Assembly: GCA_033065855.1 (NCBI GenBank)
Contig: JAVXUO010002618.1
Coordinates: forward strand, 1 to 64,000
Direction: 5' to 3'
From: Escallonia rubra
Taxonomy: Eukaryota > Streptophyta > Magnoliopsida > Escalloniales > Escalloniaceae
Length of the DNA stretch: 64,000 nt
Positions 2,111 to 56,353 of the stretch are shown here, in pieces (within the stretch, counting starts at the first letter, position 1; the number at the start of each line of letters is the position of its first letter). The position numbers were made by a program, and so were the translations under genes. The notes below the pieces were generated by a model, which worked only from the letters and a program-made list of their open reading frames with translations, was not told where the DNA came from and made no database searches.

Positions 2111-2232
2111 TAATTTTACATTATACAAATTTTCCAACGATTACACTGCAAATAATTTTTATTCTTCTTTTATTTAATTCTATGACTTGTTGAGAATGAT
2201 ATAATTTTTATTTTTTAGATTTCAGTATAAAT

Positions 2233-11265: not shown

Positions 11266-11766
11266 CCCATATTACCTATGTGTTACGACATCCGTCCAAA
11301 GCTTCAATAATCCATGAATCTACTACTCCGTTCTAAGGAATTTTTGAGTCTAAACAAAAATAAAGTGCCAAGGATTGTTCTAGGCGCCGCTTCCATTATT
11401 GTAGGTGATCCCGATGTAATCTGCATTAGGCAGACCAAAAAATTCCCAAATGTTAGTTTGGTTAGTTTTTCATGGATATAAATATTCCGAAATGCTAATC
11501 TGGAGACAATTAGAATTACGTTTATTCTAGTGGTGGTAGCAGCGTATCTTTTGGTTCTTGGATCTTTGCCAGTTTTGGTGGTTCCATTGTTGTGGATACT
11601 CACATTTAGAGTTTAGATTAACACGGAAATATTAAGCACATAAATACTAGTAATAACTAATAACAATACGGATGATAATGATGCATTTCACCCCCATAAA
11701 ACCCTGTCTTCGACTTCGACAAAAAATAGCAAATCCTTTATTCTCAGTTCCGAATAGAATGTGTAC

Positions 11767-12556
11767 CTTCGGGTTCTGATTCCTGACGACCTAAGGAATC
11801 CTTTAAAAATGTCCAAACATCTCTGGCGGTAGTAGACTTGCCATGGCACACCACAGTATCGAGGACCTGTTCACTCAGCGAACCCAGTATCCATCCCTTT
11901 ACCAGCAAGTCTGATTTTTTCCACAGCACATAATCTGGGTTCGTAACACCCTTGTTGGCATCTTTGGCGACAGTTGTTGCAGTCTCGGCCGGCGCAGGGG
12001 TTGTGCCATCAATGAAACCGACGAGATCTTGGCTCTCAAAGAGGCAAAGAATCTGTTCTCTCCATAAGAAGTAGTTGGCTTTAGTGAGCTTGAGTGTAAC
12101 AAAGTTGGCGACAACAAGCGTTGATGGGTGTGTACCTTCGGATTCTGATTCCGAGTCGTTATCGTCCGGATCTAAGGAATCCTTTAAACATGTCCAAACA
12201 TCTCTGGCGGTAGTAGACATGCCATGGTCCACCACAGTATCGAGGACCTGTTCACTCAGCGAACCCAGTATCCATCCCTTTACCAGCAAGTCTGATTTTT
12301 TCCACAGCAGATAATCTGGGTTCGGAACACCCTCGTTGGCATCATTGGCGACAGTTGTTGCAGTCTCGGCCGGCGCAGGGGTTGTGCCATCAATGAAACC
12401 GACGAGCTCTTGGCTCGCAAAGAGGCAAAGAATCTGCTTTATCCATAAGAAGTAGTTGGCTTTAGTGAGCTTGAGTGTAACAAAGTTGGCGACAACAAGC
12501 GTTGATGGGTGTGGGTAGTGTGGAGAAGAGGAGGAAAAAGAGCTTGAGGAAGCCAT
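11767..12556 (-). CDS. Gag-like first exon with doubled domain (paralogue 0 of ankyrin-PGG gene)
   Basis: From ATG at 12556 the frame starts MASSSSFSSSSPHYPHPSTL and contains a Ty1/copia-gag-like N-terminal domain (LKLTKANYFLWIKQILCLFASQ, then WILGSLSEQVLD, ending in an acidic tail). The domain is present twice in tandem through a 369-bp (123-codon) in-frame duplication. The exon can end at GAACCCGAAG|GTACAC, in the same phase as its homologue at 44528-44948; read through, the frame stops shortly after, at 11744. The ankyrin-PGG exons of this copy would lie left of MULE-1, outside the window. It could instead be a stand-alone short gag-derived protein. Confidence 0.6.
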
Positions 12557-12689
12557 AGGTTTCTTTCTTCAGAGTACGTACAGAGTGTTGACGAAGGCCA
12601 ATCAACAAGTTTATACCTGAGACAGGGAGCCAGCATGTGAATGATTGGAATCATGAACACCAAACAGTAGTTACATTTGGCCTCTAGAG

Positions 12690-16232: not shown

Positions 16233-17178
16233 ATGAGTACCGATAGCAATGCCTCGCAAGTTAGTCTTTCTAATAAAAGAAAGAATGTTGGTGATTTGAA
16301 GACAAATCATACCTTAGATGGACTGTGGAAATGGACCGCGTTCTTAATGTTGTCTTACTTGATCAACTTAATATTGGGAACAAAGTTCCTAATTGATGGA
16401 AACCAAGTGCGTACAATGCTGTGATTGATGCAATAAGTGATAAATGTAACGTAAAAGTTACAAAGGAGAATATTGTTGGTCATCTAAAAACATGGGACAA
16501 GCATTATGAGGTAGTGTCTAAGTTGTTGACCCAAAGTGGCTTTTCGTGGGATTGCTATTCCAATACGATTAGCGTTTATAGTGAAGCTGCTTGGAATGCC
16601 TATGTTCAGGTAAAAAGCATATTACTCTCTCTTATTTTTAAAACAATTGGGGCTTCTTATATAGTTTTATATTTACTTTTTTGTAGGATCATCCCGATGC
16701 AAAGCCATATAGAAGAAAGGTAATTGAAAATTGGGAAGATTTATCAGCTATATGTGGACAAGATCGAGCAACAGGGGAAGGAGCTGAGACTGGTGTTGAA
16801 GGTTACAATGAGCTGGCATCTAATTCCAATGTAGAGGAGGCTAGTGAAGATCTTGATAACACGAATCATCAAAAGGCAACTTCTACAACTAAGTTACAAC
16901 CATCGAGAAAGAAAAGTCGGACTAGTGATGCACTTGCTACAGCTGTTACATCAATGGCTAGTGCCATCGACAAGGTATGTGCATCAGAAGCTACAATTGC
17001 AAGTGCGAATTTCATTTATGAGAAGTTAGCAGAGGTGCCAGATTTGGATCAGGTTGAGTTGCTCAAAGCTTATGATGTGCTGACTGGCAACGCGAGGAAG
17101 TTTGAGTCATTCATGTCCCTTCCGTTTCACTTGAGGAAGCCATGGTTAATGATGCAAATCAGCATTCATAAGACTTAA
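16233..17178 (+). pseudogene. Myb/SANT-like ORF1 of PIF/Harbinger, damaged
   Basis: Two exons, 16233-16609 and 16687-17178, are joined by a 77-bp GT-AG intron. The first encodes a Myb_DNA-bind_3-type trihelix (MDRVLNVVLLDQL ... ITKENIVGHLKTW-type core ... SEAAWNAYVQ). The second holds DHPDAKPYRRKVIENWEDL, a basic RKKSR patch and an alpha-helical tail. In PIF/Harbinger transposons this protein binds DNA and helps bring the transposase to the ends. Here there is a frameshift near 16305, before the domain, and an in-frame TGA at about 16397, so it is not functional as it stands. A host L10-interacting-MYB-like gene is the alternative. Confidence 0.7.
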
Positions 17179-20931: not shown

Positions 20932-22711
20932 CTACAACAATTTTAATGTGTGATAGACACTCCTTGGCTTCATTTGCAAACAATGTCCAAAGAATGGTCG
21001 ATCACTTTGTTTACCGAAAATCCCACGGCCATATGTTGAAGAGATGACTTGAACGAGCAGGGGAGTCTGCGAGAATAAGAACGAATTTACTGGTAGCCAT
21101 GCAAATGCAGCCACTGGAACAAGAACACAATCTCTTCCACAACCTCATGAACCTTTAGGCACGCAGCGACAATAACTGCTTCCTCAACATGGAGCATTAG
21201 TTCACTATGGTCACTTATAAATTCCATTTCGTTGCACAAGCATTTAACAAGTTGAAGGGCTTGATTGTGGACCAATTTTTTGTGACGAATGTAGCTGATA
21301 TGTGGCACTGCCATCGAAGAAGAGGAAGGATGTCATACACCAAACGAAATCAATATCAGCCAAATTGAAAAGTTAATTTTCCTGACCTAGTAATCCTACG
21401 CCTTCCCAAAGCGTGGCGCCGAGCTGCTGCAGAACTGTACAGTAAAACCAATTTAGATGAAGAATGAAAAAGCTTACTGGTGATGTAATGACTAGACAAA
21501 CTACTCATCTATTATATCCTCGAAGTGCTTATATTGTCCTATGCACGTAGCACTACTCGGCCTTTCAGATCAGTCACATGGCTAGAAAAACAAAAGTAGC
21601 ATATATGTACAAGCCAAACCAGGACTAAAGTAGCTACCTTGAAGCAATCGAATCCTGTCTACCATCTGCATCAGCCCTTGCGACGTGTCAGCTGGGTCCT
21701 CAATATCACCAACATTTTTGTTGTTAGAGCAGTTTTCCAAGATAATAGGAGCGCCTTGACATCAAAACATGTTAAACCCCATCAAGACTCGGACCATACA
21801 GTTACGTTATACAAGTAAAGTCAGTGTCATCCATTTGATGTCCAAGGGTTCCTCTTCCAAGCATATAAGGAAAACATTATAGACACCAATTAAGAAATGC
21901 TGTATGGTTCGGTAAAGACGCTCACAATAATAGATGAGTTTCTCCCAAAATTTGAGGGGGATTCCACTGCGAAAAGCAGAAGCCTTCCTAGATATTGCTG
22001 TTAAAGGAGAGTCTTCACCCTCCCTCGGATTCACTTTATTAGCCAAATCGGGGAAGCGCTTAACCAAATCCAAAGCTATATCTGTAAGTTACATACAATC
22101 CGATTACTGTCATTTCCGGTTCTTTGATTGTTCAAATTCAGTTCGTGTATCTTGCCTAGCTACTGGTATGAACTAAAGAAATAGGTCGAGAGATAAAACT
22201 GACCAAAAAATCCAGAATTAATGACATGAACCAGTAATTCAACCCCAGATTGGCCAGCGAAGGGAGGACTAGACCCCACGTCGTCTTCGGTGACCCTCAG
22301 TAAATACAGAAGTGTATCTTTGTGGGCAAACTCAGCAACCAGATGGAGTGGAAGATGTCCGCCTCGCGTCCTTATGTAAAGAGAACCTGGGTTCTTCTCC
22401 ACCAAGGCAGTTACAGCCTTGGTGTTGCCAACTGTTGCTGCAAAGCTAAGGGCAGTATCACCACTCTTACTCCGCAGAAGCAGTGCCCCCGGAGGCATCA
22501 CGTGGACCAACTTCTCCAAGAAAATGGGTTGCCTTTCCCGACCCAGCGGCAATTTGAACTGCTGTCTCAGAACGTACTGAAATCCTGGCTGGGACTGCAT
22601 GTTTGTCTTGGTGAAAGAATCCCTCAGCAGTCTTCCAGTCACCTCTGACTGCAGCTTTGTATAATGGCCGGTAATAGATTAAATCATTCTCTACTGCTTG
22701 CGCTTCTGAAC
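20932..22711 (-). pseudogene. Ankyrin-PGG gene, paralogue 1, decayed
   Basis: This matches the exons of paralogue 2 (33271-35817) in order. The ankyrin exon has a frameshift after GSGKATHFL (around 22520). About 845 bp corresponding to 33409-34255 is absent, at a short ACACA-type microhomology. That removes the first three PGG membrane segments and part of the preceding exon, fusing the last membrane helix (FAWLPVNSFLFSQTPLLV) to the upstream exon. The short exon encoding QLGATLWEGVGLL is still intact. No gag-like exon is found upstream; only a 45-bp remnant of segment R is present at 25318-25362. No working protein is expected. Confidence 0.85.
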
Positions 22712-32845: not shown

Positions 32846-33270
32846 ATACGAAACTAATTCATTAAAGAGTTCTCTCGCTAATCAAACCCACTTTTTTCGT
32901 CTCGTACAACGATGCCTTCACTCCATTGCAAAATACTGTGGTAAAAATTGTTGGAGAACATTGCAGAATGTCAATGGCAAATGCCTAAGTCGAATGCTAT
33001 CCGCTCTTTTTTTAAGACAATATTTGCCACATATATTGTAAAGGGTTACTATAAATCTGCCTCTCAAGATAAACCAGGCGAAATGTGTATTTGAAGAGGT
33101 TTAATAATTTATAACTACTATTAAGCCAAAAGTCAACATTAAAGGTTACAACTTTCAACTGAAAAATTGACTGTCACAACATTTATAATTTGATCAAGTG
33201 TCAACTATTGAAAAATCTTCAACAATTTTATGGTGTGATAGATACTCCTTGGCTTCATTTGCAAACAATG

Positions 33271-35817
33271 TCAAAACAATGATCGATCACTTTGTTTACC
33301 GAAAATCCCACGGCCATATGTTGAAGAGATGACTTGTACGAGCAGGGGAGTCTGCGAGAATAAGAATGAACTTACTGGTAGCCATGCAAATGCAGCCACT
33401 GGAACAAGAACCCACACCTCTCTCTCGCCAAACACCAGATATACTGTGGCACCAAATGCTATGATCATAGATGTTATCGCCAAGAACAACGTAAGAAGAC
33501 CTATTATCAACCTCTTAGGCAGAGCATAGAGAAATTCCTCCTCTGCGTAGCGTGCAGTGAGGATGGACAAGAACATTAACAAGGAAGTAACTGATGTGAA
33601 AAGTGAGATCGTATCCGAAACAGCAAAGATCATGAAGGCCTGATATCCAGAAAAGATTGGGTAGCCACTGTCTTGATTATTGCCACCTGGTACAGTTATG
33701 GCAGCTGCAAAGACTATGGTGACAATAAGAGCTGCTGCAATCGAACATGAAGTTGCCGTCTCTTTCATCCATTTCTCTCCCTCTTTCACTAGGTCCTTGT
33801 GTTCCTTAGTAAATACCATTGCAGGAGTCTCTTTATTAGAGTTAGGCATGTCCTTGAAGGCGGGTTTTACAAACTTTTCGACTTCCTGTAATAAAGCTTT
33901 AACATCAGCAAGGCAGTGCTAGTATATTTGTGGATAAGGTAGAAAAAGAAATTTGCAAAGGGATCCATCCGCTATATGTAAATTATTTTATTACCTTAAA
34001 CCATTGCAGCTCCCTCTGCATCTGCAGTGCTGCACCAGAAGTAAGATTGAGTTTGTGTAGAGGTGCCAATATTCCAGCCAAATGCAGTATGTTGTTTTCT
34101 GAGCTGTCGGTTACCATATTCATGAATTGTTTATGCTCTCCCATCTGATAAATCAGGTTGAATACCTTTTCGGAACGGTTTAAAATTGCAATTTGAAATA
34201 TTCCACGACTAATATTTTCGTGAGAATACAACAAAATTGCTTGGGGAAAGGTATCCACAATCTCTTCCACAACCTCGTGAACATTTAGGCGCGCAGCGAG
34301 AATAACTGCTTCCTCAACGTGGCGCATTAGTTCACTATCGTCACTTATAAATTCCATTTTGTTGCACAAGCATTTAACAAGTTGAAGGGCTTGATTGTGG
34401 ACCAATTTTTTGTGACGAATGTCGTTGATATGTGGCACTGCAATCGAAGAAGAAGAAGAAGGATGTCATACACCAAACCAAATCAATATCAGCCAAATTG
34501 AAAAGTTAATTTTCCTGACCTAGTAATCCTACGCCTTCCCAAAGCGTAATGCCGAGCTGCCGCAGAACTGTACAGTAAAACCAATTTAGATGAGGAATGA
34601 AAAAGCTTACTGATGATGTAATGATTAGACAAACTGCTCATCTATTATATCCTCGAAGCGCTTATATCCTCGGCCTTTCAGATCAGTCACATGGCTAGAA
34701 AAATAAAAGTAGCATATATGTACAAGCCAAACCAGGACTAAAGTAGCTACCTTGAAGCAATCGAATCCTGTCTACCATCTGCGTCAGCCCTTGCGACGTG
34801 TCAGCTGGGTCCTCAATATCACCAACATTTTGGTTGTTAGAGCAGTTTTCCAAGATAATAGGAGCGCCTTGACATCAAAACATGTTAAACCCCATCAAGA
34901 CTCGGACCATACAGTTACATTATACAAGTAAAGTCAGTGTCATCCATTTGATGTCCAAGGGTTCCTCTTCCAAGCATATAAGGAAAACATTATAGACACC
35001 AATTAAGAAATGCTGTATGGTTCGGTAAAGACGCTCACAATAATAGATGAGTTTCTCCCAAAATTTGAGGGGGATTCCACTGCGAAAAGCAGAAGCCTTC
35101 CTAGATATTGCTGTTAAAGGAGAGTCACCCCCTCTCGGATTCACTAAAGCCAAATCAGGGAAGCGCATAACCAAATCCAAAGCTATATCTGTAAGTTACA
35201 TACAATCCGATTACTGTCATTTCCGGTTCTTTAATTGTTCAAATTCAGTTCGTGTATCTTGCCTAGCTACTGGTATGAACTAAAGAAACAGATCTAGAGA
35301 TAAAACTGACCAAAAAATCCAGATTTAATGACACCAACAAGTAATTCAACCCCAGATTGGCCAGCGAAGGGAGGACTAGACCCTACGTCCTCTTTGGTGA
35401 CACTCAGTAAATATAGAAGTGTATCCTTGTGCGCAAACTCAGCAGCCAGATGGAGTGGAAGTTGTTCGCTTTGCGTCCTTATGTAAAGAGAACTTGGGTT
35501 CTTCTCCACCAAGGCAGTTACTGCCTTGGTGTTGCCAAATGCCGCAGCAAAGCTAAGGGCAGTATCACCGGTCTTACTCCGATGAAGCAGTGTCTCCGGA
35601 GGCATCATGTCGACCAACTTCTCCAAAAAATGGGTCCCCTTTCCCGTCGCAGCGGAAATTTGAACTGCTGTCTCAGAACTTACTGAAATCCTGGCTAAGA
35701 CTGCATCTTTGTCTTGGTCAAAGAATCTCTCGGCAGCCTTCCAGTCACCTCTGACTACAGCTTTCAACAATGGCCTGTAATAGCTTAAATCACTCTCTAC
35801 CGCTTGCGCTTCTGAAC
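33271..35817 (-). CDS. Ankyrin-PGG membrane protein gene, paralogue 2, exons 2-7 (ITN1/ACD6-like)
   Basis: Minus-strand exons: 35817-35311, 35188-35039, 34867-34751, 34567-34520, 34437-33995, 33885-33271. All junctions are GT-AG and keep one open frame to the stop. The N-terminal part holds ankyrin repeats (GDTALSFAAAFGNTKAVTALVEKNP; LPLHLAAEFAHKDTLLYLL). The C-terminal PGG domain (TATSCSIAAALIVTIVFAAAITVPGG) begins about four membrane segments, ending with GIFGKQSDR. Such proteins sit in plant membranes and act in defence or stress signalling; the exact role is unknown. The acceptor TTGTGCAG at 35818 is chosen because it fits in phase with the gag-like exon at 44528-44948, giving 766 aa; no in-frame ATG precedes the ankyrin exon. 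This is the only copy here with no visible lesion. An LTR element lies ~420 bp beyond its stop. Confidence 0.8.
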
Positions 35818-37444
35818 CTGCACAATTTACCTTGCGTAAATCATATTGATATGTTGCGTTCAACAGTGATTATGTTAAATTCTCAGATTCTAACCTTAAA
35901 GGGAATGGATGTAAGCGATAAACCAAATAACAGAAACAAAGCTGATATGACATCTCTGTGGCAAGCATGAAGCGCTAAGACGATGTCGCTGAATAATAAA
36001 TTTTATTATTATATTCTTGTGGATATTGCAGTGAGTCGCAGTGTTATTATAAGCTTAGGAGTTACATTAGTTATACTACTCGCCGTCTATGAAGATGTAA
36101 AAAGGTGTATGGTGGAAGAGTGCATATTGCAAGTACAAGAAAGTAAGATACACAATTCTACATTGTTATTATGTGTTCACTTCAAGATCTCGCCATACTT
36201 GTCACCATATGAGTTTGAGTGACCTTTTGTCTCCAAAAAAGGAGTATCTAAGCCACAATAATTTTGGTGGACATTGTTGTGTTAGTTTGTTAAAGTCCCT
36301 ATGGATTTGAAAAACTATTCAAAATGGATATTTCGTTTGAAAATTGATGTTCTCAAACTATGTAAAAAAGAGGAGTGTCCTTTTATTATGTCTCTAGTCT
36401 TGTGATTTGTGGGATGTGGTCGGTCAAGAACCACATATTATCTTGTCAAAAGGAATTTGAAAAAAATAAGGAAGAAAATGCACTCCCAGTGTTGCAAACG
36501 GCCATCCGTACAGAAATATGGATGCGCATTGGAGATTTAAGATCTCTAAGTAATGTTTAGCAAATGATTGTGGTCATTGCTTCCAACCCTGGATATGACT
36601 TCTTACTGATCGAGTATTGAGTACAAAGCAGGGAAGAAGATGAGTTCACAAATGAAGATTGTCAAAATCTTGAGAAAGAAACTCCAATTGAGTACCGAAA
36701 CGAGTTCCACATTTCTGGAGCCAAATGGTTGTCGAATAGAGAAGAGTCGTTTCAAATTATGGACGAGAGCGTGAACACAAATGGTGGTGATGAAAATGCT
36801 CAAAATGAAGAAATAGAGGATGAAAGCATTTATAAAGATGTAAAAGTTCATGGATGTCAAAAGATGAACAGCTCAGGTATGACTTTTATTTTTATTAATT
36901 ATTTTATTTTTTTATTTTTTTGGTAAGAGAAGAAAATGTGGTCATATTCATTATATGGCCTCGCAAGAAGAAAGTGATGATCATTCTTTCATGGCTGAGA
37001 ATATTGGGGTGGTGCCACGAGGATATGCAGTTAAAGATGATGTTTTAGATACTCCATCATTGAAAATCATCTTAGGGAGTTATTTTTCATCCCTTTAAAG
37101 AAAAAATGGCTTGAGAAAAATTAAACAGGTTACTCTCAACTTGGTATGAATTAAAGAATGAATTAAAGAATTTTGTTAAGTCATATAGGCTGGGTGAATA
37201 TGGAGACATTATTTGCCAGTTAGAGCGACAAGAAATGTCTAAAGGACAGGGTCAAAGCAAATATCCACACGGGTGACGAAGAAATGTTAGAAATAAAATA
37301 TGAAGTTGACCAACATGCGATATACATCAATGAAATGGCAAAAAACATTGCTACTTTAATTTGGATGGAATTTGAGATGAAGAACATTATGGACACCTAC
37401 CAAGCCACTCAAAGATGAATAATGTTAGGAGATATAAATCAACT
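35818..37444. other. Intron 1 side / 5' flank of paralogue 2
   Basis: Homologous to 22712-24484 and 56354-57970. It holds the same degenerate acidic coding-like stretch (about 36600-37070), broken in the same general way, plus AT-rich sequence. It has no recognised gene of its own. Confidence 0.55.
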
Positions 37445-38215
37445 TTAAAAGGGGGGCTTTGAAAAATAAAACAAACTTATTTTAATTAGATTTGATTGCA
37501 TTGTAAACCTTGACCTTGGCTAAAACCCTAACTTTTATATTTAGGCACCAAAAATCACAAGGTTTGCCATATTGCAATTGAATTATTTCACTAACAGGAT
37601 TCAACGGTTCATTAGTGTTTAAAGGCAGTCCCATCTTTTCCAATCCCCTGTGGCCAAACCCTTCTTCTTCCACCTCCACCTCCACGACCACTTACTTTTT
37701 CGCATCCAGTCTCGCCTCCTCCAGCCACCACATCTTCCCCCTCTGACCACCCCTGTCCCTCCCACTACTATCAACGGTCAGTTTTCCATGCCCAACACAA
37801 GGCCACCTACACATCACCAACAGCAGCTTAGCAGCTCCTATATTTCTAAATCTCTTCCTTAATTTAACATACACAAAATATATTTAGAACTAAAATCTGA
37901 ACTACACCTACAAATACAGAAGCAGTAGCAGCGCCATGATGTGCCACCATGAGCAACACCACCTTGGATGTGACGGTGGGTTTGAAGGTTGGTAGGCATG
38001 GCAGTGGGTTTACGAGTTAGTGGTCACAACGCTGGGTCAGCAGGTTCATTGGCATTGTTCCCGGAGGGGCGGCAGGGGAGAGGCAAGCAGCGAACGTGGG
38101 TTGCGATGGTGGGTCGCGGTGGTGGGTTCGCGGGTTGGTTGGCGTGGGTTCACGGAGGAGAAGCAGCCGAGTTCTGGTAGTGGTGAGCGATGATCAGGAA
38201 AAGAGAAAGGGGAGG

Positions 38216-38248
<33 letters not shown>

Positions 38249-38600
38249 TCCTACACTTCCTCCTGCTTCGATCTGATCATCTAAAATTGGTTAAGTTAAT
38301 TGCTGCAATAATATATATAAATAGTAGATGATGTATAGCTTTGAATTGTAAAGTGAACTGCTATATTATTTTCTGAATGAAATACAATGGACTTTGACAA
38401 AAAAAAAGTATTTAAAAGGACAAAAATGCCGTTAAAACCCATGGAATCATTGACTCCCTTAGTAAAACCGTTCGCTTGCAATAGATAACAAACCTTAGGA
38501 TTTTTGGTGCCCAATTGAAAAAGTTGAGGTTTTGGTTACAGCTTTCAGTAAAGGTCAAGGTTTACAATGAAATTAAGCTTTTTATTTATGTTCCGTGAGT
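37445..38600. mobile_element. Long-TIR element copy 2, both arms present
   Basis: Inverted arms of ~190 bp: the left is about 37450-37640 and the right about 38415-38600. They share CATTGTAAACCTTGACC, GGCACCAAAAATC and CAAGGTTTG in mirror order. The core is proline-rich, G-rich and (GA)n. No coding gene is recognised and no clear target duplication is seen. It is a MITE-like foldback element of uncertain superfamily, present in all three array copies and so older than the duplication. Confidence 0.6.
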
Positions 38601-39128
38601 GGTGCATTAGTAACATGTTTGTGATGTTAGTCATGTGTTTGTGGTGAGCCTCCACAACCGCCGAAAGCCGCCAAATTTCTTACTTCGTTTTGGTCAACCA
38701 ATTTAAACACAAATATACTCACTCCATCCAACTTAAAACAACCCAACTCAACCTAATTGATTGATTTATTTATTTATTTTTATTTTTTTGGGTTAGAGCT
38801 TTGTTAGGTTTAAAAACGTATTGGTTTTCTTGGATTTGGTGCAAATCCAACTCATCTCATCCAAGTTGCAACCCTAAATTCTAGACTGGACTCTAAATTT
38901 CTTGCACCTCTAAACTTGTTGGGGGTGTGCGGTGTGCCCAAGGGCACCTCATCTTGTCATTCGTCCTTGCTGCTCTTTCCTGGTCTAGCAACTTTCAGAT
39001 ATGCCACTTGCCTTTTGAAGCTATAGCTAACAAGTCCACATAAAATTGCAAGGTTTCATGCATCATGTAGTTCGGTGTTATAGTGTTTAATATCTAAGAA
39101 AGCATAAGGGAGCAAAAAAGGAAACCTA
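38601..39128. other. Shared intron segment Q'
   Basis: Homologous to about 61011-61540. It runs up to the (TA)n tract where MULEs inserted. Nothing is recognised in it. Confidence 0.6.
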
Positions 39129-39150
39129 TATATATATATATATATATATA
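39129..39150. repeat. (TA)n tract, left flank of Pack-MULE
   Basis: A TA tract continued at 43361-43399 beyond the element. Together these form the homologous target site of intron 1. Confidence 0.95.
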
Positions 39151-39259
39151 GGGAGCTGATCCGTTGATGACGTTAGCAAACTGAGTTAAGTTCCTAGCGC
39201 GATCTGGCCGTCCATCCTAAAAGATGGACGGCCCAGATCGTGCCTTTTTTGAATACTGT

Positions 39260-39512
39260 CAGTCGTCCGCGACACTATGTCGCGGACGGTATTTTTTACC
39301 TTTTTGTCCTATGACCGTCCGCTACATTGTATCGCGGAGGGTCCAAAATTTTTTTTTTTACGTTTTTTTTAAGTTCGTCCGCTATATAATGTAGCGGACG
39401 CTTTTTTTACAATAATACCCTCATGTGCCGTCCGCTACATTATATAGCGGACGAGTAGACAGAACATTAAATTGTCTCCAACTCCGTCTGCTACATAATG
39501 TAACGGACAGGA
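39260..39512. repeat. Left TIR dyad array of Pack-MULE
   Basis: Five dyads at about 39266, 39306, 39373, 39430 and 39486. The first has arms GTCCGCGACA and TGTCGCGGAC; the others are mostly GTCCGCTACA and TGTAGCGGAC variants with a 3-bp centre. Mirrored copies are at 43005-43250. The change from CGCTACA to CGCGACA is matched in both arms. Confidence 0.9.
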
Positions 39513-39580
39513 GAGATGCACTTCTTATTCACTCCTGACATGTCTTCTGACCTCATTTCCCCCTCCTTTCTTCTTCTTTT

Positions 39581-39631
<51 letters not shown>

Positions 39632-39698
39632 CTCCTTGCAGAGCAACGACAACAGCCAATTTGTACCAGAGATTTGGAAATGAGTATATAGTGCCAGA

Positions 39699-40713
39699 CA
39701 GTGTTATAAAAAGCGCGCCTAGGCGCGCGTCTAGGCGCCAGGCGCAGCTAGGCTCACCCATCGCGCCTCGCCTAGGCCTAGGCGCAGCGCGTTCAAGAAG
39801 GCGCGCGCCTCTTGCGCCTAGGCGCCCAGGCGCGCCTAGTGAAGCGGCGGTGGAGGCGCAAGGCTGGGCGCATGCCTGTAGCCATTTGATTTTCTTCACA
39901 TGGGCTGTTGATTTTCTTTTTCCTTTTGTCTTTACTCTTTACCAAATCAAAACCCCCAAATCAGTTCCTGATTCATGGGTACTCACGACCCAAGCTCTCT
40001 GTCTCTCACAGTCTCTCACAGTCACCGCAAGAGACCCAAGCTCTCAGTCTCTCACAGTCACCTCGCGAGTCGCTCGCGACCTTCCATCGTCGTCGCATCT
40101 TCTTCCTCTGCTCGCCGTCGCATCTCCCATATCCTCCGGCCGTCTGCTCTTCAGTTGCCGGCGCTGCTTCAGACGCCATTGTTGGTCGGCTGGTCCTCTT
40201 CGTAGCTGCTGCTCCATTGGTCAATTGAAGCAGCTTCTCAGTTGCGGGCCTTGCAGCAGATTTCTCTCTCTCCCTTTCTTTCTCTCTCTCTCTCGGGTGA
40301 GCTTCATTGCTCCATGTTTATCATGAACATGAACAGTACATGTAATGAATTATTCTGTTTTGTGCCAAAGCCAGCTATGGTTTGCTGTGAGCCTGTGAGA
40401 ATGATTTGCTGCAATTGTTAATAGGTTGTTCATTGTTGGCTGAAACTTGGAATGGGCTTGGTTTATTAATGTAGTTTAGTCTTTCCACTGAGCTGCAATT
40501 GTTAATAGGTTGTTTTTGTAGCAGATGTTTTTGTATTGAAACTTGGAATGGGCTGTTTTTTTTACATAATATATTGTTTTAGTGTATTATTATTTATTTA
40601 TTTTATTTATTTTAATATTGCACCTCGCTTCGAAAAGGCGCGCGCCTGCGCCTTGCGCCTAGGCTCCAGGGACCTTTTGCGCCTTAAGTGCGCCTGCGCC
40701 TTTAACAACACTG
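39699..40713. mobile_element. Non-autonomous hAT element (1015 bp) rich in GCGCCTAGGCGC
   Basis: An 8-bp duplication GTGCCAGA lies at 39691-39698 and 40714-40721. Termini are CAGTGTTATAAA and TTTAACAACACTG. Both ends are packed with GCGCCTAGGCGC-type dyads (39716-39860 and 40637-40700). The interior, including pyrimidine-rich 39980-40300, has no recognised gene. It inserted in the 3' region of the captured aldo-keto reductase segment. Confidence 0.88.
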
Positions 40714-41193
40714 GTGCCAGAGATGTAAACCTAAACGCAAGAATAAAAAAAATATAACCAAAACCAGTTGCTTAGTCAAAAACAACCAACAACGTGAGGA
40801 CATCAACATCATGGGTTCTAGTTTAAGAAATAATGTTCATGACAAAGTTTGCAAAGAAATAGCAAGTCAGAGAGTGATAATAGGTCTTAAAGAGGAAAGA
40901 GTTATACTTGAGACTCTCCTTGATAGCCGGTACAACAAGGTCACGTTCTGCACGGTTGCACCACAGCTTGGTAGTGATGAAGACCTCAGCGCGGGACTGA
41001 ATCAAACCAAGACAAACAGCCTCTTGAATTGCTTGGCCAAGGGGCTGCTCCGTGCGGTACACAGCCGACGTGTCAAAGTGGCGGTAGCCGGCCTTGATGG
41101 CCTCAAGGATTACAGATTTTATGTTCTCCTCACCTACTAGCGGCTGCCCTGCGGTGCCCATGGCGATGACCGGCATGGTTACAACCGCACCCG

Positions 41194-42472
41194 TAGGGAT
41201 GGCAAAAAAATCCATACCCGCGGATATCCGCCCCGCCCCGCCCCAATAGGGGCGGGTTATTTTGACTTTGACCGGGGCGTGGGGCGGGTATGGTATTTTT
41301 TTTAAAAACCCGTAGCGGGTTAGGATCGGGTATGGTATACCCGTGATCCGCCCCGCCCCGCCCCGGTGTACCCTAGTTCTTTAGTTAATCTTAGCCGTAC
41401 CTTAATTGTTTAGTTGATCTTAGTCATCCATATCCTTGTTTTTTTTCTTGCAAACCCTAAAATCCCTAATATGTGGCTTTGTGTGGCTGTGCCTACTGCC
41501 TTCTCACTCTCACGGCTCTCCTCTCTTCACCCACCTCTTTCTCGGCGACTCCCCCACCAGCCAGGCAGCCACCGCAACTCCTCCTTCTTTGTTCTCTCCC
41601 TCTCGCCGCCGCAGCCGAACTTCCCCACCAGCCACCGCAGCTCTTCCTTCGATGTTCTCTTCCTGTCACCGGTCACCCCTCACCACCACCTCCACCGTCA
41701 CTACCACCTAACCGTTCATCGTCCACCATCACCATCGCAGCTCTCTGGACAAGCAACTTTCGAGGCCCGACCTCTGCTGGAATCTTGATTGCAGGAAAGA
41801 AGATCTTGGATTGATTTCCTCCTACTGATCGATAGCCAAGAATGAAGGCGCCTGACATAAATAATCCATAATCGATAGCTTTGAAGATGGACAATGTAGT
41901 CGGCGGTTTCTTGGAACAGCTGGTCGGGCTTTATGTCGCCTTTTCCGGCGGGTATGAGGTTTTTGAGAGCCTCCAAATTGTCGGAAACCGAAGAGCGCGC
42001 GTGTGAACCACCATTGATGACCACTTTTAAGCTCTTTTTTGGACGTCTGTGAGAGTTTGTTCTTCTTCTGGTGTTAATGTTGATGGGTCTCCTTGGCCTT
42101 GAGACCATGGCTATTGGCAAGGAGAGGAAGAAGGAGTGATTAAATTTCCCGTTCCCTAGTTCTTCTTTATGCTTCTGATTACCTAAATTTTTAGTTGGAA
42201 TTACTAGGTGTTTCATTTTCAGGTTTGTAATTTTTTTTTATTATTGATGTCCTCATCTTCAAGATCCTTTGGTTTTTGGTTCCTGGACTTTTGTAAAGCT
42301 CTGATTCATTATCCTCGGCTAGTCTTCTTCAACTCAGTTTGGTTTTGGCCAGAGAGTATCAGAAAATCCATTGCAAAGAAGATTAGGGCGGGGCGGGGTG
42401 GTTTAAAAGGACTACCGGGGCGGGTGCGGATTTTATAAGATCCGCATCCGACCCGCCCCATTGCCATCCCTA
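41194..42472. mobile_element. hAT element (1279 bp) with bHLH gene piece
   Basis: An 8-bp duplication CGCACCCG lies at 41186-41193 and 42473-42480. Perfect termini TAGGGATGGCAA and TTGCCATCCCTA are present, with GCCCCGCCCC-rich subtermini. It sits inside the captured aldo-keto reductase exon. It has no transposase but holds a piece of an atypical bHLH gene, so this hAT copy also appears to have taken up host sequence. Confidence 0.92.
41881..42108 (-). pseudogene. UPBEAT1-like atypical bHLH gene piece
   Basis: Seventy-six codons starting MVSRPRRPININTRRR. They contain a basic stretch and SDNLEALKNLIPAGKG ... LFQETADYIVHLQ, the helix-loop-helix pattern of short atypical bHLH regulators such as UPBEAT1. 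The frame then loses similarity, as at an exon edge. It is a captured piece, not expected to function. Confidence 0.6.
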
Positions 42473-42543
42473 CGCACCCGTGGTGGAGCTTATTGGGACC
42501 TCTGGAATGGTGGTTGCCATTTTCTTCTCACTTGTGTTTTTGA

Positions 42544-42687
42544 TTGCTCCAGACGAATCTGGTCAATTTGTACACAGTTGGTGGAGGGAAGGCTGGTTTG
42601 GCCAATACACGCAACGTGTTTGATGAAATGACTGAGAGAAGTGTTGTGAGTTGGAACTCAATGCTTGCCGGGTTTGTTAGGTGCGTG
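42544..42687 (+). pseudogene. Captured PPR gene piece
   Basis: About 47 codons read LQTNLVNLYTVGGG, then NVFDEMTERSVVSWNSMLAGFVR, a clear PLS-class pentatricopeptide motif. It joins abruptly to the aldo-keto reductase 5' region near 42535 and runs into unrelated sequence after 42690. A second host source in the same Pack-MULE. Confidence 0.85.
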
Positions 42688-42851
42688 CACCTGCTCTCCC
42701 TCTCCAAGCCAATTCGATATTCAAACAATTTCAATATTCAAACATGTTCGTTGCTGATCTGTTTTACAATTTTGATATTCAAACAACTCGCTTTCCAAAT
42801 TCAGATGCACTGAAACATGGTGAGAGAAAAAAGAGAGAGTCATAAATTGAT

Positions 42852-42882
<31 letters not shown>

Positions 42883-43002
42883 AAGGAAAGAGAGAGAAAG
42901 TGTAAAAAATTGATGAGAGAAATGAGAGAGAGAGACAGAGACATGTCAGAAGTACGAGAGAGAAAGGATAGAGAAAGAGGGAAAAAATCGTGTCTGCTTG
43001 TT

Positions 43003-43262
43003 TGTCCGCTACATTATGTAGCGGACGGAGTTGGAGACAATTAATGTTCTGTCTACTCGTCCGCTATATAATGTAGCGAACGGAACATGAGGGTATTATT
43101 GTAAAAAAAGCGTCCGCTACATTATATAGCGGACGAACTTAAAAAAAACGTAAAAAAAAAAATTTTGGACCGTCCGCGATACAATGTAGCGGACGGTCAG
43201 AAGGCAAAAAGGTAAAAAATACCGTTCGCGACATAGTGTCGCGGACGACTGACAGTATTCGA
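43003..43262. repeat. Right TIR dyad array of Pack-MULE
   Basis: Five dyads, at about 43005, 43060, 43108, 43170 and 43222. They are in mirror order to 39260-39512; the outermost again uses the CGCGACA arm. Several are perfect over 10-bp arms. Confidence 0.9.
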
Positions 43263-43358
43263 AAAAGGCGCGATCTGGGCCGTCCATCTTTCAGGATGGA
43301 CGGCCAGATCGCGCTAGCAACTTAACTCAGTTTGCTAACGTTAACAACGGATCAGCTC

Positions 43359-43399
<41 letters not shown>

Positions 43400-43401
<2 letters not shown>

Positions 43402-43640
43402 AGTTGATCCGTTGACTGTACGGGCAACTTGGGTTAAGTTGTTAGCACGATCTGGCTGTCCATACATAATTTGTGGACGGTCCAGTTCTTTTTTTTTTTT
43501 ATATTTTTTTTAGGTACGTCTGCTACATTATGTAGCAAACGATTTTTTTATAAAAATACTCAGCTATAAAAATACTCAACCCATCTGTTACATTATATAG
43601 CGGACAAGTAGATACTAGTCTTTTGACTTTTTTTTTCTCT
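43400..43640 (+). mobile_element. Remnant left end of a related MULE
   Basis: Begins GAGTTGATCCGTTGACTG and continues GTTAGCACGATCTGGCTGTCC, then decayed GTCTGCTACATTATGTAGC-type dyads. No right end is seen. Pyrimidine-rich simple sequence follows to 43852. It sits a few dozen bases from the Pack-MULE in the same TA tract. Confidence 0.75.
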
Positions 43641-43852
43641 TACTCTCTCCTTTCTCTCATTAATTTTCTTACTTGTTTCTCTTTCCCTCATTAATTTTCT
43701 TTCTCCTTTCTGACTTGTGTCTCTTTCTCTCTCCTTTCTCTCATCAATATTCTAACTTGTTTCTCTTTCTCTCTCTCTTCGGTCACCACTTTTTTCTTTT
43801 CTCTCTCATCATCCCTCTCATCATCATCATCTCTCTCTCTCTCTCTCTCTAT

Positions 43853-45640
43853 TGCTCATATTACCTATGTGTTAAGACATCCCTCCAAAGCTTCAATAAT
43901 CCATGAATCGACTACTCCGTTCTAAGGAATTTTTGAGTCTAAACAAAAATAAAGTGCCAAGGATTGACCTAGGCGCCGCTTCCATTATTGTAGGTGATCC
44001 CGATGTAATCTGCATTAGGCAGACCAAAAAATTCCCAAATGCTTGTTTGGTTAGTTTTTCATGGATATAAATATTCCGAAATGCTAATCAGGAGACAATT
44101 AGAATTACGTTTATTCTAGTGGTGGTAGCAGCGTATCTTTTGGTTCTTGGATCTTTGCCAGTTTTGGTGGTTCCATTGTTGTGGATACTCACATTTAGAG
44201 TTTAGATTAACACGGAAATATTAAGCACATAAATACTAGTAAATTTTTGTTACTGATAAGATTCTTTTTCAAATTGGCAAAATAGGATTGTACTCCAATT
44301 AGGTTTTGACAAAATCTTAGTTTCACACAGTATCCAAATGCCACATAAATACTAGTAAATTAACATTTAGAGTTTAGATTAACACGGAAATATTAAGCAC
44401 GTAAATACTAGTAATAACTAATAACAATACCGATGATAATGATGCATTTCACCCCCATAAAACCCTGTCTTCGACTTCGACAAAAATTATCAAATCCTTT
44501 ATTCTGAGTTCCGAATAGAATGTGTACCTTCGGGTTCTGGTTCCGAGTCGTTATCGTACGGATCTAAGGAATGCTTTAAACATTTCCAAACATCTCTGGC
44601 GGTAGTAGACTTGCCACGGTCCACGACAGTCTCGAGGACCTCTTCACTCAGCGAACCCAGTATCCATCCCTTTACCAGCAAGTCTGATTTTTTCCACAGC
44701 AGATAATCTGGGTTCGTAACACCCTCGTTGGCATCATTGGCGGCAGTTGTTGCAGTCTCGGCCGGCGCAGGGGTTCTGCCATCAATGAAACCGACGAGGT
44801 CTTGGCTCGCAAAGAGGCAAAGAATCTGCTTTATCCATAAGAAGTAGTTGGCTTTAGTGAGCTTGAGTGTAACAAAGTTGGCGACAACAAGCGTTAATGG
44901 GTGTGGGTAGTGTGGAGAAGAGGAGGAAAAAGAGCTTGAGGAAGCCATAGGTTTCTTTCTTCAGAGTACGTACAGATTGTTGTCGAAGGCCAATCAACAA
45001 GTTTATACCTGAGACTGGGAGCCAGCACACGATTGGAATCATGAGCACCAAAAAGTAGTTACAAAACACCCTTGCTGTGTCTCTTGTGTTTTCTGTCTTT
45101 GGGAGGACAGTTTCGTCAGATCCGCACAACTTGTCGCACACTATTTTTACGGACAAAGTGACGGAAGTGCCCCCAGTCACGAGTCAGAATTATCGTAGAT
45201 TGGCGAGTTTTTTTGGTCATTTTTTAGAGGGGGGGGTACAGTTAGATGGGCCCCACCGAAGCTGATTAAGTGCACTTTTTCTTTCTCTTTTTTCTCTTTT
45301 CCTTTTTTTTTTTTTTTTTTTTTTTGTGTAGCAGTGGGTAATATTCTGGTGGTGTTTGGTGAAGGAATTTTCCTGGGTGATGCGGGTGCATTGTGTTACG
45401 GTGCGGCTTTCGGTTCATTGGCTGTTACGATATTACAATACGAGCTGGTTTGACCCGAAGAAATGTTTAGCTTGAAAGTTGAAATGGGAATCTGGTACTT
45501 TTGATCCTTTCCTACATTCTTTGGATTAATTGTCAAAATCGCCATGTTAGCAGATTTATTGCTTTAATCAGTTTTATACCAAAATCTCGAATCTGCAAAG
45601 TTTGTCCATCTCCCAAAAGTTTATTTCTATGAGTGTAAAA
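43853..45640. other. Duplicated host segment R (paralogue 2)
   Basis: Homologous to 11263-14376. It holds the single gag-like exon (44528-44948) and its 5' region (44949-45640, no other gene seen, with a poly-T tract at 45303-45327). About 44190-44415 has an extra ~170 bp flanked by a repeat of TTTAGAGTTTAGATTAACAC. Confidence 0.8.
44528..44948 (-). CDS. Gag-like first exon of ankyrin-PGG paralogue 2
   Basis: ATG at 44948 starts MASSSSFSSSSPHYPHPLTL. One copia-gag-like N-terminal domain follows (LKLTKANYFLWIKQILCLFASQDLVGFIDG; WILGSLSEEVLETVV), then an acidic EPEPEG tail. The exon is 421 bp and can end GAACCCGAAG|GTACAC, leaving phase 1. The ankyrin exon acceptor at 35817 starts GTTCAG in the matching phase, so the join gives E-G-S-E in frame. 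Read through, the frame closes at 44499, giving a 149-aa alternative. The gag-like domain may bind RNA or mediate assembly; that is family-level inference. Confidence 0.65.
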
Positions 45641-53372: not shown

Positions 53373-53789
53373 CTAATTCATTAAAGAGTTCTCTCGCTAA
53401 TCCAACCCACTTTTTTCGTCTCGTACAACGATGCCTTCGCTTCATTGCAAAATACTGTGGTAAAAATTGTTGGAGAACATTGCAAAATGTCAATGGCGAT
53501 TGCCTAAGTCGAATGATATCCGCTCTTTCTTTAAGACAATATTTGCCACATATATTGTAAAGGGTTACTATAAATCTGGCTCTCAAGATAAACCAGGCGA
53601 AAGCTGTATTTGAAGAGGTTTAATAATTTATAACTACTATTAAGCCAAAAGTCAACATTAAAGGTTACAACTTTCTACTGAAAACTTGATTGTCACAACG
53701 TTTATAATTGGATCAAGTGTCAATTATTGAAAAATCTTCAACAATTTTATGGTGTGATAGATACTCCTTGGCTTCATTTGCAAACAATG

Positions 53790-56353
53790 TCAAAACAATG
53801 ATCGATCACTTTGTTTACCGAAAATCCCACGGCCATATGTTGAAGAGATGACTTGTACGAGCAGGGGAGTCTGCGAGAATAAGAATGAACTTACTGGTAG
53901 CCATGCAAATGCAGCCACTGGAACAAGAACCCACACCTCTCTCTCGCCAAACACCAGATATACTGTGGCACCAAATGCTATGATCATAGATGTTATCGCC
54001 AAGAACAACGTAAGAAGACCTATTATCAACCTCTTAGGCAGAGCATAGAGAAATTCCTCCTCTGCGTAGCGTGCAGTGAGGATGGACAAGAACATTAACA
54101 AGGAAGTAACTGATGTGAAAAGTGAGATCGTATCCGAAACAGCAAAGATCATGAAGGCCTGATATCCAGAAAAGATTGGGTAGCCACTGTCTTGATTATT
54201 GCCACCTGGTACAGTTATGGCAGCTGCAAAGACTATGGTGACAATAAGAGCTGCTGCAATCGAACATGAAGTTGCCGTCTCTTTCATCCATTTCTCTCCC
54301 TCTTTCACTAGGTCCTTGTGTTCCTTAGTAAATACCATTGCAGGAGTCTCTTTATTAGAGTTAGGCATGTCCTTGAAGGCGGGTTTTACAAACTTTTCGA
54401 CTTCCTGTAATAAAGCTTTAACATCAGCAAGGCAGTGCTAGTATATTTGTGGATAAGGTAGAAAAAGAAATTTGCAAAGGGATCCATCCGCTATATGTAA
54501 ATTATTTTATTACCTTAAACCATTGCAGCTCCCTCTGCATCTGCAGTGCTGCACCAGAAGTAAGATTGAGTTTGTGTAGAGGTGCCAATATTCCAGCCAA
54601 ATGCAGTACGTTGTTTTCTGAGCTGTCGGTTACCATATTCATGAATTGTTTATGCTCTCCCATCTGATAAATTAGGTTGAATACCTTTTCGGAACGGTTT
54701 AAAATTGCGATTTGAAATATTCCACGACTAATATTTTCGTCAGAATACGCCAAAATTGCATGGGGAAAGGTATCCACAATCTTTTCCACAACCTCATGAA
54801 CATATTGGCGCTCAGCGACAATAACTGCTTCCTCAACATGGAGCATTAGTTTACTATGGTCACTTATAAATCCCATTTCGTTGCACAAGCATTTAACAAG
54901 TTGAAGGGCTTGATTTTGGACCAATTTTTTGTGACGAATGTAGCTGATATGTGGCACTGCCATCGAAGAAGAGGAAGGATGTCATACACCAAACCAAATC
55001 AATATCAGCCAAATTGAAAAGCTAATTTTCCTGACCTAGTAATCCTACGCCTTCTCAAAGCATGACGCCGAGCTGCTGCAGAACACTGTACAGTAAAACC
55101 AATTTAGATGAAGAATGAAAAAGCTTACTGGTGATGTAATGATTAGACAAACTGCTCATCTATTATATCCTCGAAGTGCTTATATTTTCCAATGCACGTA
55201 GCACTACTCGGCCTTTCAGATCAGTCACATGGCTAGAAAAACAAAAGTAGCATATATGTACAAGCCAAACCAGGACTAAAGTAGCTACCTTGAAGCAATC
55301 GAATCCTGTCTACCATCTGCGTCAGCTCTTGCGACGTGTCAGCTGGGTCCTCAATATCACCAACATTTTTGTTGTTAGAGCAGTTTTCCAAGATAATAGG
55401 AGCGCCTTGACATCAAAACATGTTAAACCCCATCAAGACTCGGGCCATACAGTTACGTTATACAAGTAAAGTCAGTGTCATCCATTTGATGTCCAATGGT
55501 TCCTCTTCCAAGCATATAAGGAAAACATTATAGACACCAATTAAGAAATGCTGTATGGTTCGGTAAAGACGCTCACAATAATAGATGAGTTTCTCCCAAA
55601 ATTTGAGGGGGATTCCACTGCGAAAAGCAGAAGCCTTCCTAGATATTGCTGTTAAAGGAGAGTCACCCTCTATCGGATTCACTTTAGCCAAATCAGGGAA
55701 GCGCTTAACCAAATCCAAAGCTATATCTGTAAGTTACGTACAATCCGATTACTGTCATTTCCGGTTCTTTGATTGTTCAAATTCAGTTCGTGTATCTTGC
55801 CTAGCTACTGGTATGAACTAAAGAAACAGGTCTAGAGATAAAACTGACCAAAAAATCCAGAAATAATGACATGAACCAGAAATTCAACCCCGGATTGGCC
55901 AGCGAAGGGAGGACTAGACCCTACGTCCTCTTTGGTGACCCTCAGTAAATATAGAAGTGTATCCTTGTGGGCATACTCAGCAGCCAAATGGAGTGGAAGT
56001 TTTCTGTCCCACGTCATAATGTTAAGAGAACTTGGGTTGTTCTCCAACAAGGCAGTTACAGCCTTGGTGTCGCCAACTGTTGCAGCAAAGCTAAGAGCAG
56101 TATAACCAGGCTTACTCCGCAGAAGCAGTGCCTCCGGAGGCATCATGTGGACCAACTTCTCCAAAAAATGGGTCCCCTTTCCCGCCCCAGCGGCAATTTG
56201 AACTGCTGTCTCAGAACATACTGAAATCCTGGCTGTGACTGCGTCTTTGTCTTGGTCAAAGAATCTCTTAGCAGTCTTCCAGTCACCTCTGACTGCAGCT
56301 TTGTATAATGGCCTGTAATAGCTTAAATCACTCTACTGCTTGCGTTTCTGAAC
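53790..56353 (-). pseudogene. Ankyrin-PGG gene, paralogue 3, with lesions
   Basis: Exon for exon the same as 33271-35817 at an offset of about +20519 in the 3' half. The PGG exon (53790-54404) encodes the same protein as paralogue 2 without change. The short exon has TGG changed to TGA (55055-55057) within the L-WEGVGLL motif. The first ankyrin exon has lost two bases near 56331, which shifts the frame just after the QAVE motif. No full protein is expected, though transcription could persist. Its gag-like exon would lie right of MULE-2, outside the window. Confidence 0.85.

Follow-up and report, generated by a model that had tools for sequence, protein, structure and literature searches.

Does a short reading frame resembling a retrotransposon Gag, at 44528-44948 on the minus strand of the window, form the first exon of an ankyrin-repeat gene whose remaining exons begin 8.7 kb downstream, or is it a chance neighbour of that gene? 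The window is the initial 64 kb of C95, an Escallonia rubra contig of 187 kb, and the genome searched comprises 566 Mb in 3,222 contigs. A sequence-only reading of the window had noted compatible splice phases and proposed that the two parts are joined into one gene, here called copy B. Comparison with its relatives makes it highly probable (roughly 0.88) that copy B is a member of a duplicated host ankyrin-PGG family in which a copia Gag N-terminus has been domesticated as exon 1.

All seven exons of copy B lie on the minus strand. Exon 1, the copia-Gag-like N-terminal domain (44528-44948), starts with ATGGCT and ends in the donor GAAG/GTACAC in phase 1. This donor, already singled out in the sequence-only reading, agrees with the consensus at 5 of 8 positions and outscores every other GT in an interval reaching from 90 bases upstream to 60 bases downstream of the site. 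Intron 1 (35818-44527) spans the 8,710 bp between it and the acceptor of exon 2 (35311-35817), the exon with the ankyrin repeats (Ank_2, 38.0 bits, above the cut-off of 27.3). The acceptor TTGTGCAG before 35817 accepts phase 1, and the in-frame stretch 5′ of exon 2 contains no ATG ahead of a stop; complementary phase and missing start codon had both been claimed, and both claims hold. Exon 3 (35039-35188) has homologues in the paralogues, and exons 4 (34751-34867), 5 (34520-34567) and 6 (33995-34437) were recognised from the joined frame and from the paralogues. Two 150-nt placements fit exon 3, and the one preferred has, by eye, stronger splice signals than the alternative at 35033-35182. Exon 7 (33271-33885) carries the PGG membrane domain (PF13962, 93.5 bits against a curated cut-off of 24.1) and the stop codon. 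All inner junctions are AG/GT, with the phases given earlier, and the joined exons (421+507+150+117+48+443+615 = 2301 nt) read as 766 amino acids and a stop, with no internal stop, just as had been proposed. Left unspliced, the gag-like frame stops at 44499, after 153 codons.

At a single pair of sites the phases would agree by chance in a third of cases, and the same exon pair was therefore sought elsewhere in the genome. Exon 1 served as one query (best 150 of 601 candidates scored) and a diverged relative of it as another (best 150 of 757 candidates scored); the locus counts for exons 1 and 2 that follow refer to the matches listed and are lower bounds. At least 18 loci carry exon 1. Six are of the window type (seven rows, 83-100% identical) and 12 are of a diverged type with 30-42% identity to the window exon. 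The top 12 loci of the diverged query all lay on contigs bearing homologues of the ankyrin exon 2. Pairing was scored by script between 154 exon 1 rows (150 from the window query and four hand-picked from the diverged query) and the 51 listed exon 2 rows, a pair being an exon 2 homologue no more than 25 kb downstream of exon 1 and in the same orientation. Seventeen rows were positive and two, both from a doubled exon at 12 kb of the window, were negative; none of the other 135 exon 1 rows had an exon 2 homologue within those limits. Counted by locus, an exon 2 homologue followed on the same strand at a distance of 0.4-22.7 kb in 17 of 18 cases. The 18th is the doubled exon, whose downstream side reaches the contig end after 11.7 kb. 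The exon 1 frame was also free of stops at 17 of the 18 loci, the exception being a frameshifted copy (C1010:110k). The gag-like exon thus occupies the same place at several host loci, with its splice sites and frame kept, and the recurrence of the arrangement across many genomic places argues for an inherited part of the gene and not a chance neighbour.

Twenty genomic stretches were examined, with exons placed by tblastn. The exon order 1, 2, 3, 6, 7 was complete in L029, L030, L031, L033 and L034, and also, on the plus strand, in L032, where exon 1 is frameshifted. Exon 1 joined exon 2 in frame in all eight short-intron relatives examined (introns of 361-905 bp). Seven of the joined frames stayed open to amino acids 306-337 and one left the stretch examined, whereas the unspliced frames stopped at amino acids 153-207. 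Splice sites at these eight loci were chosen by eye, phase 1 not being demanded, and were rechecked separately ignoring phase. In this phase-blind scoring of GTs from -90 to +60, the donor used was the best in 7 of 10 loci, joint best in two and second in one (C832), where the best donor was also in phase 1. Alternative AGs near the acceptor mostly differ by multiples of three and so give the same phase. Among the window-type loci, four have a full open seven-exon frame: the window gene itself and C95:101-108k, C1839:201-215k and C1839:235-255k, which encode 750, 705 and 746 amino acids, respectively, and have AG/GT at their inner junctions. Exon 1 measured 421, 421, 415, 373, 382 and 382 nt at the six window-type loci and 400-415 nt at the eight others; its length was 1 modulo 3 in all 14 (6/6 window-type loci and 8/8 short-intron relatives). 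The position of the stop beyond the donor varied between copies. Recurrence at 17 of 18 loci together with eight in-frame joins out of eight indicates that the pairing is not due to chance. Exon order, splice signals, phases, open joined frames and the recurrence are direct observations. The joining of exons 1 and 2 across 8.7 kb, which the sequence-only reading had offered as an inference, is well supported for the window gene by this comparison of genes; the transcript and its splicing at the locus are predicted.

The gag-like identity of exon 1, also claimed earlier, is borne out by profile searches. The Retrotran_gag_3 and Retrotran_gag_2 profiles (PF14244 and PF14223) matched 13 of 15 members of the exon 1 family at E<0.01. 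A tandem copy at 11744-12568 reached 43.9 bits across its two repeats, above the cut-off of 24.1. When the 15 members were combined in a profile, the best matches in PDB were the Drosophila Copia virus-like particle protein (8s41 and 8vvw), which were weak (E 0.03 and 0.07). An AlphaFold2 model of exon 1 built from three window sequences had a mean predicted local distance difference test score of 40.5 and was too poor for a fold search. Three related long frames from the same genome all matched copia Gag, Pol_BBD and GAG-pre-integrase, and two of the three matched integrase, one of them slightly below the cut-off. Copia frames L019, L020 and L023 start with MASSS..YPYP and L028 with MAASS..YPYP, and the likeness of the host exon to copia-type Gag extends to this start in some of them. 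The difference lies at the other end. Several copia frames continue past the point corresponding to the end of the host exon, whereas the host exon stops at a splice donor after about 125-140 residues, without the remainder of Gag in frame. The window frame does not run into a polyprotein as a complete Gag would, since it ends at 44499, and every exon 1 copy that was read is cut after the Gag N-terminal domain. From the profile matches, the shared start and the copia frames that run on, the host exon is by sequence comparison the equivalent of the opening ~125-140 codons of a copia gag, from the start codon onwards.

A plausible course of events begins with the arrival of a copia element, or of the initial part of its gag frame, upstream of an ankyrin-PGG gene. 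The first ~125-140 gag codons, with their own start codon, would then have been spliced onto the ankyrin exon from a phase-1 donor, and the new 5′ module would have spread by duplication and by exchange among paralogues. Intron 1 of the window gene was probably enlarged later, in part by a terminal-inverted-repeat element; at 8,710 bp it compares with 361-905 bp for the corresponding introns of the eight diverged paralogues. The element occupies 4.26 kb within the intron (39127-43385), in a (TA)n stretch, and contains part of an aldo-keto reductase (PF00248). Its terminal repeats of ~380 bp (39127-39509 and 43003-43385) are 95.6% identical. The end sequence of the element recurs in tens of other genomic places, often as facing pairs, with at least 108 matches, many of them short (40 best of 2,851 candidates scored).

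One pair of loci bears on the exchange step. Between C1894 (L029) and C1010:231k (L030), exon 1 differs by 13.7% and intron 1 by 4.5%, the jump in divergence sits at the border between them, and the region upstream cannot be aligned. Positive selection on exon 1 was considered for this pair and rejected, because synonymous change is raised as well and the jump falls at the exon border. Together with the unalignable upstream region, these features fit an exchange of the 5′ module better, and they suggest that exon 1 of C1894 and its upstream region have a different descent from the rest of the gene.

Evidence of constraint on the exon is mixed. Indels in the exon 1 alignment preserve the frame; gap lengths in introns, a weak control, were not multiples of three in 8/8, 6/6, 16/16, 2/2, 14/18 and 16/18 cases, three of these comparisons involving C1010:177k, whose introns are ~46% different and hardly alignable. 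In substitutions-only simulations free of selection, all six C1010-type tips remained free of stops in 0.3% of 5,000 runs. These simulations assume no exchange between copies, though C1894 suggests that exchange occurs, and, like the exon 1 ratios given below, they leave out C1010:110k (frameshifted), C268, C1010:378k and C973:102k. Both the open frames and the indels that preserve the frame are suggestive of constraint on exon 1.

Several observations weigh against the proposed gene structure or its origin. The ratio of nonsynonymous to synonymous differences per site (pN/pS) in exon 1 was 1.49, 0.93 and 0.70 in three groups, near 1, and no purifying selection on amino acids is evident from it. 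For comparison, exon 2 gave 1.20, 0.74 and 0.90 in three groups, and the two groups compared for the PGG exon gave 0.97 and 0.45. For the window group, the simulation left all copies free of stops in 27% of runs and has no power. Window exon 1 alone scored 18.8 bits, under the Pfam cut-offs of 24.1 and 27. Many ankyrin-PGG relatives lack such an exon upstream among the matches listed. At C1010:325k, a locus included in neither splice count, the donor is lost through a change of GT to AT, and another C1010-type locus has a frameshift in exon 1. Some C1010-type loci have an in-frame ATG at or just past the exon 2 acceptor, so the ankyrin genes there could begin without exon 1. Finally, in the best Gag tree, built from 14 host exons and 19 pieces of copia Gag, host and copia sequences form separate groups with moderate support (81.8 in the Shimodaira-Hasegawa-like approximate likelihood ratio test, 83 in the ultrafast bootstrap), but the approximately unbiased test accepts alternatives to this split (p 0.25-0.47), and the tree fails to choose the number of captures.

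Two ankyrin-PGG subfamilies may each have acquired the exon in a capture of its own, the sources being related copia elements. Among the matches listed, the window-type exons resemble some copia Gags (45-50%) more closely than they do the C1010- and C832-type exons (30-42%). In the exon 2 tree, moreover, C2135, C2941/C889 and C847/C116, in which no gag exon was found, fall between the two gag-bearing groups; this absence refers to ~1.2-1.4 kb of upstream sequence for C2135, C847 and C2941 and to the matches listed for the other intervening loci. Set against this are the host/copia split of the best tree and the agreement of both subfamilies in start codon, approximate 3′ end and donor phase. 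Because of that agreement we prefer a single capture with later losses as the likelier history of these sequences, and regard two captures as rather unlikely.

The gag-like frame might instead be a separate short gene of ~149 amino acids, ending at 44499 and duplicated together with the ankyrin gene. An open unspliced frame is present, and the ~110 bp past the donor are, by eye, as conserved between window-type copies as the exon itself. The end of that frame is not conserved, however: among five window-type copies, two share one TAA, two have an earlier TGA and one reads on. The exon pair and its matching phases have been kept across copies whose gag parts are 30-42% identical, and the ankyrin part of the window gene has no start codon of its own ahead of exon 2. 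A separate gene is accordingly very improbable. Least probable of all is a decaying copia fragment beside the ankyrin gene and in no mRNA, which would agree with the pN/pS near 1 and with the abundance of copia-type Gag frames in the genome but not with the constant position and orientation at 17 of 18 listed loci, the stop-free exon with frame-keeping indels, or the fact that all copies read break off past the Gag N-terminal domain.

If copy B is a gag-headed host gene, its closest known counterparts are plant proteins of the ankyrin-PGG class, to which ACD6 and ITN1 belong. They share with it the ankyrin repeats followed by the PGG domain (PF13962), and differ in that a copia-Gag-like first exon stands ahead of the ankyrin part here. 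By analogy with them, the likeliest function, though held with less than even confidence, would be that of an ACD6-like membrane ankyrin protein whose N-terminal, Gag-derived domain is a module for protein interaction or self-association. According to PMC9194748, ACD6 is an ankyrin-repeat protein that regulates cell death and immunity, and a preprint has reported ion channel activity for it. A more specific and quite doubtful idea is that the Gag head of this ACD6-like immune family binds the Gag or capsids of retrotransposons or viruses, acting as decoy or sensor, or keeps the channel-like protein oligomeric, rapid protein change and 5′ exchange then reflecting an arms race. Integrated domains of NLR genes are the subject of PMC8832786.

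Gag domestication is best known from animals, and such familiar domesticated gag genes as Arc, PEG10, PNMA and Fv1 belong to animals. They resemble the present case in that a Gag-derived segment is retained in a host protein; the difference is that here a plant copia Gag N-terminus forms one exon of an ankyrin-PGG gene. Among the papers listed by full-text literature searches, none described an ankyrin-PGG gene with a gag exon, although automatic domain databases may list the architecture. If true, this would be a clear plant case of a transposon turned into an exon that has outlived old duplications. As the ankyrin-PGG class includes immune regulators, the role of a capsid domain on an immune-type membrane protein becomes a testable question. 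Repeat masking could also hide exons of this kind, which would then drop out of gene models.

Self-comparison of the window revealed repeated units on the minus strand. Besides copy B there are ankyrin-PGG copies A (~20.5-25.2 kb) and C (53.3-61.6 kb), and a single gag-like exon at 44.5 kb is accompanied by a doubled one at 11.7-12.6 kb. Copies A and C are frame-broken, whereas copy B is open. The doubled exon, A′ (11744-12568, minus strand), encodes a tandem pair of gag-like domains in a single open frame; two of its stretches are matched by copia Gag profiles, and no ankyrin exon 2 was found downstream within the 11.7 kb remaining on the contig. The donor sequence GAAGGTACAC is retained at the end of its first repeat. 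The sequence-only reading had stated that the donor phase is kept in a "paralogue 0", a label it left undefined; the statement is correct if this copy is meant.

In the ankyrin-PGG exons of paralogue C (53790-56335, minus strand), exon 2 has lost 2 bp and the acceptor of exon 5 has gained 2 bp, which breaks the frame; the gag-like exon of this paralogue lies beyond the window, at C95:78996-79403. Paralogue A is a remnant (20986-22709, minus strand) in which exon 2 has gained 1 bp and ~870 bp reaching from exon 6 into exon 7 are missing; no gag-like exon separating this remnant from copy B was found among the matches listed. Copies B (~33206-34089) and C (~53725-54608) are identical over ~880 bp including intron 6, and differ by several per cent in other parts. 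This identity reflects either recent gene conversion or an assembly effect.

A Senescence regulator frame (PF04520; 51919-52347, minus strand) lies between two ankyrin-PGG units, and a Myb/SANT-like DNA-binding frame (PF12776) was found at 16397-16723 on the plus strand. Near the start of the window, a MULE transposase frame with FAR1, MULE and SWIM domains (2200-4539, plus strand) adjoins a Ulp1-type protease frame (Peptidase_C48; 5694-6764, minus strand). Repeats with a spacing of ~310 bp flank this pair on both sides, at 0.2-1.7 kb and 8.5-10.2 kb.

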